Assembly: GCA_004299485.1 (NCBI GenBank)
Contig: SCQP01000016.1
Span: forward strand, 124,001-188,000
Direction: 5' to 3'
Length of the DNA stretch: 64,000 bases
Origin: Acidobacteriota bacterium
Lineage (GTDB): Bacteria; Acidobacteriota; Terriglobia; Terriglobales; SCQP01
Below the pieces are notes generated by a model. The model saw only the letters and a program-made list of their open reading frames with translations, did no database searches and was not told the origin of the DNA. Each line of letters opens with the position of its first letter. Position 1 is the first letter of the stretch. Positions 12,492 through 32,739 of this stretch are shown in pieces. The position numbers and the translations under genes were made by a program.

Positions 12492-12508
12492 GGGTCTATG
12501 ATAAGAGC

Positions 12509-12790
12509 ATGGCTCGAATCGTTCACTGTGTGAAGCTGGGCCGCGACTTGCCCGGCCTCGAAGAACCACCTTGGCCCGGCGATTTAGGCCAGCGCATTTT
12601 CGAAAACGTCTCCGCCGAAGCCTGGGTCCTCTGGAAAGAACACGCCAAGATGGTCATGAACGAATACCGCCTCGCTCCCTGGACCCCCGAGGCCCAAAAA
12701 CTCATTCAGGAACAACTCGAGCAGTTCTTTTTCGGCGAAGGCGCCGCCCTTCCGCCCGGCTTCGTTCCCGTCCCCACCAAAGCCAAGTAG
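12509..12790 (+). CDS. yggX: Fe(2+)-trafficking protein YggX
   Basis: Small cytoplasmic protein (93 residues) linked to iron trafficking and protection of iron-sulphur clusters from oxidation. It starts MARIVHCVKLGRDLPGLEEP, with the conserved Cys7, and has FENVSAEAWVLWKEHAKMVM followed by NEYRL and a C-terminal QEQLEQFFFGEG. The ATG at 12509 is 17 bases from the divergent fmt start. The last 69 bases of the gene, including the stop, are duplicated twice downstream in a 168-base tandem array, so the C-terminus (PPGFVPVPTKAK) sits inside a repeat. Confidence 0.93.
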   Translation: MARIVHCVKLGRDLPGLEEPPWPGDLGQRIFENVSAEAWVLWKEHAKMVMNEYRLAPWTPEAQKLIQEQLEQFFFGEGAALPPGFVPVPTKAK

Positions 12791-13126
12791 CGGAGCTGGG
12801 GCGTGGGGCCCCCGGCGCAGCGGATCTGCGGCCTTGAGGAGCGGGCCGCGCGGCGCAGCCGCGCTGGGCGCCCGCGATCTATCAAAGCCCAGTTCTTCTT
12901 CGGCGAAGGCACCGCCCTTCCGCCCGGCTTCGTCCCCGTCCCCACCAAAGCCAAGTAGCGGAGCTGGGGCGTGGGGCCCCCGGCGCAGCGGATCCGCGGC
13001 CTTGAGGAGCGGGCCGCGCGGCGCAGCCGCGCTGGGCGCCCGCGATCTATCAAAGCCCAGTTTTTCTTCGGCGAAGGCGCCGCCCTCCCCCCCGGCTTCG
13101 TCCCCGTCCCCACCAAAGCCAAATAG
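12722..13126 (+). repeat. 168-base tandem array: three copies of the yggX 3' end
   Basis: The 69-base stretch encoding QFFFGEG-ALPPGFVPVPTKAK plus stop occurs at 12722-12790, 12890-12958 and 13058-13126, a period of exactly 168 bases. Copies are separated by two near-identical 99-base GC-rich spacers (12791-12889 and 12959-13057) holding hairpins such as GCGCGGC-GCA-GCCGCGC. Only the first copy is joined to a full gene; the others lack an N-terminus. Copies differ at a few positions, so the event is not brand new. This array and the 13127-13214 remainder fill the 424-base gap to the next gene. Confidence 0.95.
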
Positions 13127-13181
13127 CTTTCAGCAGTCAGCCATCAGCGTTGCCGAGCCGCACCCGCAGGCGCCCCGTCCG

Positions 13182-13209
13182 ACTGATCACTGAAAACTGA
13201 TTACTGACA
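13182..13209. repeat. Heptamer tandem array downstream of the ATP-grasp gene
   Basis: Four 7-base units: ACTGATC, ACTGAAA, ACTGATT, ACTGACA, ending six bases before the ATP-grasp stop codon. A second degenerate heptamer run (CAGCAGT, CAGCCAT, CAGCGTT) lies at about 13133-13153. Same family as the arrays at 9824 and 24371. Confidence 0.75.
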
Positions 13210-13214
13210 ACTCT

Positions 13215-14492
13215 CTACAGTACTGGCAGCGCTTCCCGCATATACACCCCCAACTCCGCGTGCGCATCGCGTAACGCCTTCTCCGCCCCCTTCGCCGTCA
13301 CCGACCGCACAAAAATGAATCCCAGGTAGCTGCATGCCTCCGGCAGTGCCAGCAGCGGTTCGCCCAGCTTCGCGGTAATTTCGATCGCCTCCACGCCCGG
13401 CACCTGGCGTGCTTTCTCGATCCCGTCAATGTGGTCGAGCACGCCCGAGCGCGGAATCGGAATCATCATCACCCCCACCGCCCGCTCTTCCCGCTGCCAC
13501 GATCCCACCGGCTCGCCCAGCGCGCCCCGGATCAGCAGTTCCTCCAGCGAGATCAGCCGCCCATCCGGCCCCATCCCTGCTTCGCGCCGGAAGCGCAGCG
13601 CCCGCCCGCACAGTCCGCCGATCGAGCGCGGCGCCACCTCCAGCACATACGCAGTGTCGCCGTCCAGCCGGATTTCCGCATGAATTGGCCCCGGTCCCAG
13701 CCCTGCCGCCCGCGCCGCCGCTTCCACCATGTCCCAGATCAGCGCCCGCTGCTCCAGCGCGAGCTGCGACGGCGTGACGTACACCGTCTCCTCGAAAAAC
13801 GGTCCCTCCAGCCGGTCCGGCTTGTCGAACAGCGCAAAGCGCCGCAGCTCGCCCGTCGCCATCCAGCCATCCAGCGCGTACTCGGTCCCGGGAATATAGC
13901 CTTCCGCCAGAATCCAGTCCCCGCCCGGATCGCGCCACTGCCGGATGCTGGGGTCGATCAATATCTGCCGGATGCGCTCAAATGCCGCCGCAAACTCTTC
14001 CGCGTTATTCGCCCGGATCACCCCCCGGCTGCCCGACAAAATCGCCGGCTTCAGCACGCACGGATACTTCACCGCCGCCGCGGCAACTGCCGGTACGGTA
14101 TCCAGCTTGAATTTCTGTACCCACGGCGTCGGCAGGTCTGCCGCCTTCATCGCCTCCCGGAACGCCAGCTTGTCGTGGCACAACACCGCCGCTGCCGCAG
14201 GATGAAACGGCAGCTTCAGCCCTTCCGCCACCTTCGCCGCCATCACCGCCGCCCGGTCCCCCGAGGCCACAATCCCGGCGAACGGCCCTCGCGCCCGCAG
14301 CGCCTCCAGCGCCCCTTTCACATCATTGAACTTGATCGCTACCGCGTGATCGCCCCACGGATCCAGCAGCTTGTCGCAGCGGTCCGTGCCTAGCGCCAAC
14401 TCCACCCCCAGCGCCTCGGCCGCCTTGCGAAAGCTTTCCGTCTGATAGCCCGTCGTCGTCGCGACCAGCAGCACCCGCCGCCCAGAAGCCAT
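13215..14492 (-). CDS. ATP-grasp domain carboxylate-amine ligase
   Basis: A 425-residue ATP-grasp enzyme. The N-terminal pre-ATP-grasp domain is followed by LCHDKLAFREAMKAADLPTP, the classic entry to the ATP-grasp fold, then PCVLKPAILSGSRGVIRANN (the glycine-rich nucleotide loop), GDWILAEGYIPGTEYALDGW, and HAEIRLDGDTAYVLEVAPRS with the magnesium-binding Glu and the arginine. The C-terminal 90 residues (RAVGVMMIPIPRSGVL onward) resemble the extra domain of L-amino-acid ligase-like ATP-grasp proteins. The family joins a carboxylate to an amine via an acyl phosphate; substrates are not deducible. It is a single gene with no biosynthetic neighbours. Confidence 0.8.
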   Translation of the reverse strand: MASGRRVLLVATTTGYQTESFRKAAEALGVELALGTDRCDKLLDPWGDHAVAIKFNDVKGALEALRARGPFAGIVASGDRAAVMAAKVAEGLKLPFHPAAAAVLCHDKLAFREAMKAADLPTPWVQKFKLDTVPAVAAAAVKYPCVLKPAILSGSRGVIRANNAEEFAAAFERIRQILIDPSIRQWRDPGGDWILAEGYIPGTEYALDGWMATGELRRFALFDKPDRLEGPFFEETVYVTPSQLALEQRALIWDMVEAAARAAGLGPGPIHAEIRLDGDTAYVLEVAPRSIGGLCGRALRFRREAGMGPDGRLISLEELLIRGALGEPVGSWQREERAVGVMMIPIPRSGVLDHIDGIEKARQVPGVEAIEITAKLGEPLLALPEACSYLGFIFVRSVTAKGAEKALRDAHAELGVYMREALPVL

Positions 14493-15687: not shown

Positions 15688-15752
15688 GACGCATTTAGAT
15701 GCGCCTATCGCGGACATCGGCGGCATCGCCCCGCGCTTCCGGGCAATTCTGC

Positions 15753-15792
15753 CTAGCTGACTAGCTGACTAGCTGACCCGCTGACTAGCTTA
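15753..15792. repeat. Octamer tandem array downstream of the BNR-repeat gene
   Basis: CTAGCTGA occurs three times in a row (15753-15776), then CCCGCTGA and CTAGCTTA. The last unit supplies the stop codon of the large BNR-repeat gene on the minus strand. This is an 8-base relative of the 7-base arrays seen at other gene borders. Confidence 0.8.
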
Positions 15793-31799: not shown

Positions 31800-31893
31800 C
31801 GCGGGTCGGGTTGGGGCTCCAGGGGCCCCCAGCCCGGCCGCGCGTCAAGCGGGTCGCGCGGCGCAGCCACGCGGGGCCCCGCGCCAATCAATG
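31800..31893 (+). repeat. Composite GC-rich palindromic element at the hydrolase 3' end
   Basis: Hairpin 1 is of the type GTTGGGG...CCCCAGC (31810-31835); hairpin 2 is GCGCGGC-GCA-GCCACGC (31856-31872), followed by CGCGGGGCCCCGCG (31870-31883) and CCAATCAATGG. The same architecture is seen in the two yggX spacers; single halves occur at 35976-36063 and 63581-63620. Confidence 0.7.
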
Positions 31894-32739
31894 GCCCCGC
31901 ACCCGGCCCGCCTCAAAAAGTAAGATCGCCCCCGCCATCGCCGCGTTGAGCGACTCCACACGGCTGGCGATGGGAATGCTCACCGTCGCATCCGCCGCGC
32001 GCAGCAGCGCCCGCGGCACGCCCGCCGCTTCCTGCCCGATCATCAGGCACACCGGACCCTCGAGGCCGGCTTCGGCAGGCGCCACGCCGCCGCGCGCCCC
32101 GGTTGCCACCAGCCGCACGCCCCGGCTGCGGCACGCCGCGATCAGATCTTCCGCCGTCACCCTCGCCGCAACCGGCAAATGAAACAGCGATCCCGCGCTC
32201 GCCCGCACCGCCTTGGCATTGAACGGACTCACCGTATCCGCCAGTGCCACCACCCCGCTCGCTCCAAACGCGTCCGCCGCCCGGATCAGCGTTCCCAGAT
32301 TGCCGGGATCCTGCAACCCCGCCGCCGCCACGATTAACGCCCGCTCGCCGAATACCGCCTCCAGCTTCGCCGCCGCCCATGCCGCGAGCGCCGCCACGCC
32401 CTGCGGATGCTCCGCATCCATCGCCCCGGCGAATACCGCGTCTTCAGCCACGGCAACCTCGGTGTGTTTGGAAAGTTGCGGCAGCAGCTTCGCGCCCTGC
32501 TGCTCCAGGCCGCGCCGGCTGAACAGCACCTTCTCCAGTTGCACGCCGCTGCGCAGCGCTTCGCCGACCAGTCGCGGCCCCTCCATCGCCAGCGGCGTCT
32601 CCGGCGGTCCCTCGCGAAACGCCCGGCGGAATTCGGTCAGTAGCCCATGATGGCGCCCAATAGGAGTCGGTTCTTGCGGCACCTTCCAATTGTCACAAAA
32701 TCTTGCCACCTCCGCGCGCTGTTCCGTTTGCTGTTCCAT
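31888..32739 (-). CDS. TrmH/SpoU-family RNA 2'-O-methyltransferase
   Basis: SPOUT-class methyltransferase of about 283 residues that methylates a ribose in rRNA or tRNA. An N-terminal substrate-binding part (ETPLAMEGPRLVGEALRSGV, KVLFSRRGLEQQG) is followed by the SPOUT motifs: LQDPGNLGTLIRAADAFGAS (motif 1), GPVCLMIGQEAAGVP (motif 2) and ATVSIPIASRVESLNAAMAG (motif 3). ATG 32739 is chosen tentatively; the frame opens at 32766 and no Shine-Dalgarno decides. The stop overlaps the end of the convergent hydrolase gene. The target nucleotide is unknown. Confidence 0.9.
   Translation of the reverse strand: MEQQTEQRAEVARFCDNWKVPQEPTPIGRHHGLLTEFRRAFREGPPETPLAMEGPRLVGEALRSGVQLEKVLFSRRGLEQQGAKLLPQLSKHTEVAVAEDAVFAGAMDAEHPQGVAALAAWAAAKLEAVFGERALIVAAAGLQDPGNLGTLIRAADAFGASGVVALADTVSPFNAKAVRASAGSLFHLPVAARVTAEDLIAACRSRGVRLVATGARGGVAPAEAGLEGPVCLMIGQEAAGVPRALLRAADATVSIPIASRVESLNAAMAGAILLFEAGRVRGH

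Follow-up and report, generated by a model that had tools for sequence, protein, structure and literature searches.

Gene ends duplicated around a small palindromic element in an Acidobacteriota genome: possible scars left by DNA exchange with relatives

The window, meaning the whole stretch of 64,000 nucleotides analysed here (Acidobacteriota bacterium, GCA_004299485.1, contig SCQP01000016.1, positions 124,001 to 188,000 of the forward strand), carries on its plus strand yggX (12509..12790), encoding a bacterial Fe(2+) trafficking protein of 93 aa identified by translation and by the Pfam family Iron_traffic (PF04362, E 8e-35). The gene was detected in 79 of 80 relatives. The closest named relative of yggX is from 'Terriglobia bacterium isolate Centralia_MAG_96', from which we take the host to be an uncultured Acidobacteriota. 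Its 3' end occurs three times on the same strand in the order F1-E1-F2-E2-F3. F1 (12722..12790) is the working end of yggX; E1 (12791..12889), delimited by genome-wide matches and a covariance model, follows it, and the 3' tail of E1 (12876-12889) adjoins F2 (12890..12958), an untranslated second copy of the end. After E2 (12959..13057, from genome-wide matches; 99% identity to E1) comes the third copy, F3 (13058..13126), which is joined to the downstream DNA. TAG is the terminal codon of F1, F2, and F3, all three located by repeat search. The convergent neighbour on the minus strand (13215..14492) is an ATP-grasp gene which, according to a family search, has an L-amino acid ligase-like C-terminal domain. 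Between F3 and this gene (13130-13212), CAGTCAGCCATCAGC / GATCACTGAAAACTGATTACTGACAACT-like words recur and may represent another small repeat family; further along, at 15749-15790, Tandem Repeats Finder reported a short tandem repeat, CTGACTAG, in 5.2 copies.

Both repeat searches agreed on the tandem triplication of the yggX 3' end with a period of 168 that the earlier note had described, and PF04362 confirmed the gene. Tandem Repeats Finder delimited the array at 12722-13127 (period 168, 2.4 copies, 96% matches, score 756), whereas the other search returned three 70-nt copies starting at 12722, 12890, and 13058, the latter two being 96 and 91% identical to the first, together with two 168-nt copies of 98% identity; the array is far above chance expectation. 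Seven variable sites distinguish F1, F2, and F3, so that they are not one copy drawn three times. All six codon differences between F3 and F1 are synonymous. F2 has a single private change, a replacement of A by T in the amino acid sequence, which is what a recent copy without coding function would be expected to show. F2 is no simple one-switch mosaic of the other two. The 20-nt tail before F2 is identical to the tail before F3. In G003, a genome of the same genus, a single yggX end is followed directly by the ATP-grasp gene with no spacer. The claim that the downstream copies are unable to make YggX was supported. Readthrough of YggX into F2 was considered and set aside: the frame stays open between one stop and the next, but the idea has no other support.

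The 99-base spacer had been read as a GC-rich palindromic element, and this held: E belongs to a dispersed family, with 51 BLAST matches in the 3.3 Mb of this genome and at least 100 matches to a covariance model (150 candidates scored) built on an alignment of 29 genomic copies from two subfamilies. The consensus, which starts with AGCGGAGC, comprises about 100 bases with two GC-rich hairpins and a conserved 3' tail. Across the 29 copies both sides had changed in 7 of 20 stem pairs while 99.5% of cells remained paired, and the observed covariation was reached by none of 500 shuffles on any of five measures. E was present in nine of 14 genomes of the same bacterial family and in none of 46 of the neighbouring sister family; in genus g3 it is about 205 bases long and polymorphic between close genomes (L118 and L128 in G006). 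No Rfam family matched E, the search of the window giving a tRNA only and that of ten loci no credible match at E. No match to E was found in plasmid and phage collections, on which ground an origin from either was rejected, nor was the stretch from yggX to the ATP-grasp gene matched in the phage collection. A third copy of E in the window (31804-31898; G000:C16:155804-155898, locus L162) lacks flank duplication. Nine contig ends of this genome (on C3, C4, C6, C7, C11, C12, C16, and C18) lie within 106 bases of an E, which indicates that the assembly breaks at E and that the array lengths given here may be underestimates.

The same arrangement was found at other genes. For each E we compared the sequence that starts at its 3' end with the sequence ahead of its 5' side and looked for a recurrence scoring at least 13. 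In this genome 92 of the 102 model matches were used (10 truncated or weak ones were left out), of which 85 had enough flank in a first census and 80 in the scored test; a duplicated flank was detected at 16 of these 80, representing 12 loci (two of them, L149 and L143, weak), in contrast with 0.0 expected from 960 mispaired controls. In relatives, where 49 of 55 matches were used (44 with enough flank in the first census, 42 in the scored test) and a further set gave 25 with enough flank from 29 of 30 loci used, duplicated flanks appeared at 1/42 and 0/25 testable copies; this difference (p = 0.0004) may be technical, as the assemblies of the relatives are more fragmented and could break at repeats. 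The duplicated flanks measure about 17-126 bp. At all of these loci no more than 6 bases separate the start of the right copy from the modelled 3' end of E, whereas the left copy (first pair per locus) stops at a variable distance ahead of E, between 0 and about 113 bases, and reaches to a few bases from the E 5' end at yggX and at nuoC/nuoD.

Arrays like that of yggX (period 168) were present at four loci, with periods of 154-228; the other three involve the end of a ferredoxin gene (period 154), the end of a GMC-oxidoreductase gene together with the start of a sugar-transporter gene (GMC/GRP; period 228), and another gene end (period 172). The designations GMC, GRP, ferredoxin, and nuoC/nuoD come from our own reading of the translations. 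At nuoC/nuoD and GMC/GRP, each a meeting point of two genes, the outer junctions are native on both sides, and nuoC/nuoD is without E in the seven relatives listed. In the ferredoxin F2 the left part resembles F3 and the right part F1, and F2 of GMC/GRP is largely likewise. As for the period being a multiple of three, on which the earlier note had based the continuity of open reverse-strand frames, this holds for 168 but is incidental, since of seven arrays measured those with periods of 168, 228, and 111 are multiples whereas 154, 172, 115, and 104 are not; the open reverse frame is probably a side effect of GC-rich sequence. Two further arrays, L021 (G000:C1:169k) and L037 (G000:C16:408k), have periods of 115 and 104. 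Their E units are truncated, either behind the first hairpin or in the loop of the second, and the L021 array closes with a complete copy of E. These features suggest that another duplication process, related to hairpins, was at work. At nuoC/nuoD (L138, G000:C1:348000-349100) the duplicated nuoD start continues in frame through E antisense into a decayed nuoC end; the stop of that end overlaps the true start of nuoD (TAATG), and the operon thereby contains a small additional open frame.

Divergence between the copies was examined by comparing F1 with F3 codon by codon in frame. Ten pairs were used, one of them identical; C16:327k (taken as non-coding) and L143 (17 bases) were left out, whereas L117, the nuoC end, and the GMC end were initially left out and added later. 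Synonymous changes accounted for 36 of the 45 differing codons, and for 34 of 42 after three GRP codons lying within the E tail had been trimmed by hand. Against the approximately 40% expected for an F3 drifting beside a constrained F1, 34/42 is a marked excess (p = 7e-8), and it persisted under a lenient 50:50 null (p = 0.008). With the three additional pairs the excess weakened to 42 of 60, which still rejects a drifting F3 (p = 2.5e-6) but not the 50:50 null (p = 0.14). Individual loci differed. The nuoD start in F3, separated from nuoD by E, shows only synonymous differences from the working start, whereas the nuoC end in F1, separated from nuoC, is decayed (one synonymous and three non-synonymous changes, with the same tally in a shifted frame and, by eye, in the right one). 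The coding part of C16:99k has, the stop apart, two nonsynonymous codons and no synonymous one. Double-hit synonymous changes were found for serine in nuoD (AGC/TCC) and for leucine at C7:226k (CTA/TTG). Since the right-hand copy differs mostly synonymously, it appears to have diverged while still coding; as far as codons can tell, the synonymous excess implies two coding histories. At C14:311k the copies share 88 identical bases and diverge after that inside aligned codons (GSQ* vs GSL*); the identity stops 34 nt before the modelled start of E, with unrelated sequence between. A search, allowing up to three mismatches, for a source elsewhere of the 28 nt that precede E at this locus matched only the site itself, and that candidate explanation was discarded.

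Ordinary insertions of E present another picture. Two elements of about 205 bases that are present in G006 are missing at the same sites in the related G011 and G013, where the empty sites showed a 3-base overlap in one case and a 5-base replacement in the other; neither of these polymorphic insertions carries a long duplication. At L128, G011 and G013 have about 6.5-7 kb where G006 has the element alone. Among 112 copies of E without F, words of at least 6 bases were shared between the two sides 21 times vs. 21.0 expected, and words of at least 9 bases twice vs. 0.3, so that there was no clear excess of short target duplication. These polymorphic sites, taken together with the lack of a short-word excess, indicated that E is mobile and does not normally leave a long duplication on insertion. 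No Y1 transposase (PF01797) was found in this genome, although the family was present in nine of the 14 genomes searched, and mobilisation of E by a RAYT of its own genome was therefore rejected. Nor did the assembly contain a reverse transcriptase (RVT_1, PF00078), a source of which might have been lost or might lie on unassembled DNA. Target-primed retroposition with long duplications was an early working idea, and the fixed 3' end at 16 of 80 copies is a SINE-like feature, yet variable-length target duplication was seen neither as a long one at the two polymorphic insertions nor as a clear short one at the 112 other copies. It was dropped as the main reading because no RVT_1 was found, ordinary insertions lack a long duplication, and the copies differ mainly synonymously.

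In our reading, to which we give a probability of roughly one half, the F-E-F structures are scars of recombination between an allele bearing E and a divergent allele without it, and the arrays arose from them by later unequal crossing-over; they look like traces of DNA exchange with relatives and not like a working control device. E would be a small, mobile, palindromic element whose usual insertion produces no long target duplication, and the F-E-F structures would be secondary: an allele with E after or inside a gene end would have been joined to a divergent E-less allele, the new joint lying at the E 3' end and within the gene end of the other allele. The end would thereby be doubled, with F1 on the left of E and F3 on its right, and neither the outer gene junctions nor the neighbouring genes would be disrupted. 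Two routes are conceivable, either a single crossover with a circle made of E and the donor gene end, or one-sided homologous recombination combined with an illegitimate join at the E 3' end. Subsequent unequal crossing-over between F1 and F3 would convert F-E-F into F-E-F-E-F, as at yggX; such an exchange would explain the tandem arrays, given the identical 20-base tails at yggX and the F2 mosaics at ferredoxin and GMC/GRP. Recombination between copies, which the earlier note had offered as a way to change copy number, fits the four arrays, the mosaic structure of F2 being clearest at the latter two loci. No parental alleles or genomes were found, so we infer the donor. The foreign origin of one copy, the step by circle or one-sided exchange, and a lack of function are inferred as well.

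The two-allele model leaves the constant joint at the 3' end of E without explanation. Homology-facilitated illegitimate recombination usually entails deletion together with 3-10 bp of microhomology (PMC3240628); F-E-F differs from that process proper in showing duplication instead of deletion, and no microhomology was evident by eye at the junctions listed. The model is also weakened by the rarity of the pattern in relatives (1/42 and 0/25), by the codons of C16:99k, by the 50:50 null at 42 of 60, and by the untidy mosaic of yggX F2. As a precedent in its favour, E. coli integrants are described in which target duplications of 109-950 bp arose via single crossover of recircularised DNA (PMC3240628).

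Among the alternatives, a less likely one is that insertion of E sometimes yields a long target-site duplication, of tens of bases, through widely staggered nicks, and that recombination with E-less strains later refreshed one flank with coding alleles. The native outer junctions, the right copy that always begins at the E 3' end, and the extension of F to a few bases from the E 5' end at yggX and nuoC/nuoD are all in favour of this explanation. However, no such duplication accompanies the two polymorphic insertions or most copies of E, the identity at C14:311k stops 34 nt short of the modelled element with unrelated sequence between, and this genome has neither RVT_1 reverse transcriptase nor Y1 transposase. 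A bolder version of the recombination model is, in our estimate, doubtful: the E 3' end itself would be a recombination end, E-bearing DNA that is taken up or exchanged being cut or processed exactly at the 3' tail and joined into the homologous gene of the recipient, so that these repeats would guide gene-end replacement between species and leave behind an intact gene and an orphan end.

We consider it unlikely that replication slippage or hairpin breakage at E duplicated flank and E locally in tandem, with precise loss of the last E afterwards. The arrays at C1:169k and C16:408k do repeat truncated E units plus flank, and REP clusters with flanking DNA in tandem are known, hairpin stalling and SbcCD cleavage being cited for them (PMC3733652). 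Nevertheless, arrays of the yggX type close in F and not in E, which calls for an additional precise deletion of E each time, and slippage predicts drift in the non-coding copies instead of mainly synonymous differences. The idea of repeated 3' UTR hairpins, also raised in the earlier note, would have the array under selection as a module for mRNA stability or for copy-number-tuned yggX output. Judged on sequence it seems very improbable, in spite of the conserved, covarying hairpins of E and its position downstream of yggX on the sense strand. Unrelated genes share this anatomy, which also occurs at gene starts and at operon junctions (nuoC/nuoD, GMC/GRP); this speaks against a yggX-specific device, and G003, of the same genus, has no E downstream of yggX. 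Moreover, a terminator scan of 12500-13300 found none vs. 0.8 expected, and the single-strand fold of neither spacer exceeded shuffles (z -0.57 and -0.96). An assembly artefact, with a true unit number different from that assembled or an array falsely joined from repeats, is hardly credible, for although nine contig ends lie at E and repeats confuse assembly, individual copies are distinguishable at variable sites, and twelve loci whose flanks differ show one and the same order.

If the recombination reading is true, gene exchange in uncultured Acidobacteriota leaves a legible record that small palindromic repeats mark and may even bring about: every F-E-F retains part of a second allele next to the functional gene, and allele replacement can thus be recognised from one genome. 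If an enzyme makes the junction at the 3' end, E would offer a tractable signal for recombination. The reading also cautions that tandem gene-end arrays are not necessarily regulatory. In the open-access literature we found no description of the E family or of a regular joining of the E 3' end to a divergent gene-end copy. Already known are the reiteration of REP clusters with flanking DNA (PMC3733652) and displaced gene ends in Rhs and T6SS systems (PMC5361080).

E resembles REP/REPIN sequences and BIMEs with their RAYTs in being short, GC-rich, palindromic, dispersed, and situated near gene 3' ends, and REP sequences have also been reported in tandem clusters with pieces of flanking DNA (PMC3733652). 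The same paper gives a terminal GTAG or CGTC tag as a feature of REP/RAYT systems (PMC3733652). E differs from these in its length of about 100 bases (about 205 in genus g3), its two hairpins and conserved 3' tail, and the absence of a Y1 (TnpA_REP) transposase from its own genome. With MITEs, the miniature non-autonomous transposable elements, it shares its non-coding and multi-copy nature, insertions that are polymorphic between close genomes, and a footprint that measures 3-5 bases. The orphan or displaced gene 3' ends of Rhs and T6SS effector-immunity arrays are similar in that an old end is pushed downstream behind an incoming one, for which homology-facilitated illegitimate recombination has been proposed (PMC5361080). 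In contrast, the ends described here belong to a housekeeping gene, with almost no protein change, always lie at a palindromic element, and show no sign of selection for the displaced end. Finally, single-crossover integrants from E. coli conjugation carry direct target duplications of 109-950 bp around the inserted DNA (PMC3240628), a likeness to F-E-F; theirs was a laboratory construct, whereas here the inserted unit is about 100 bases long and its 3' end is constant.
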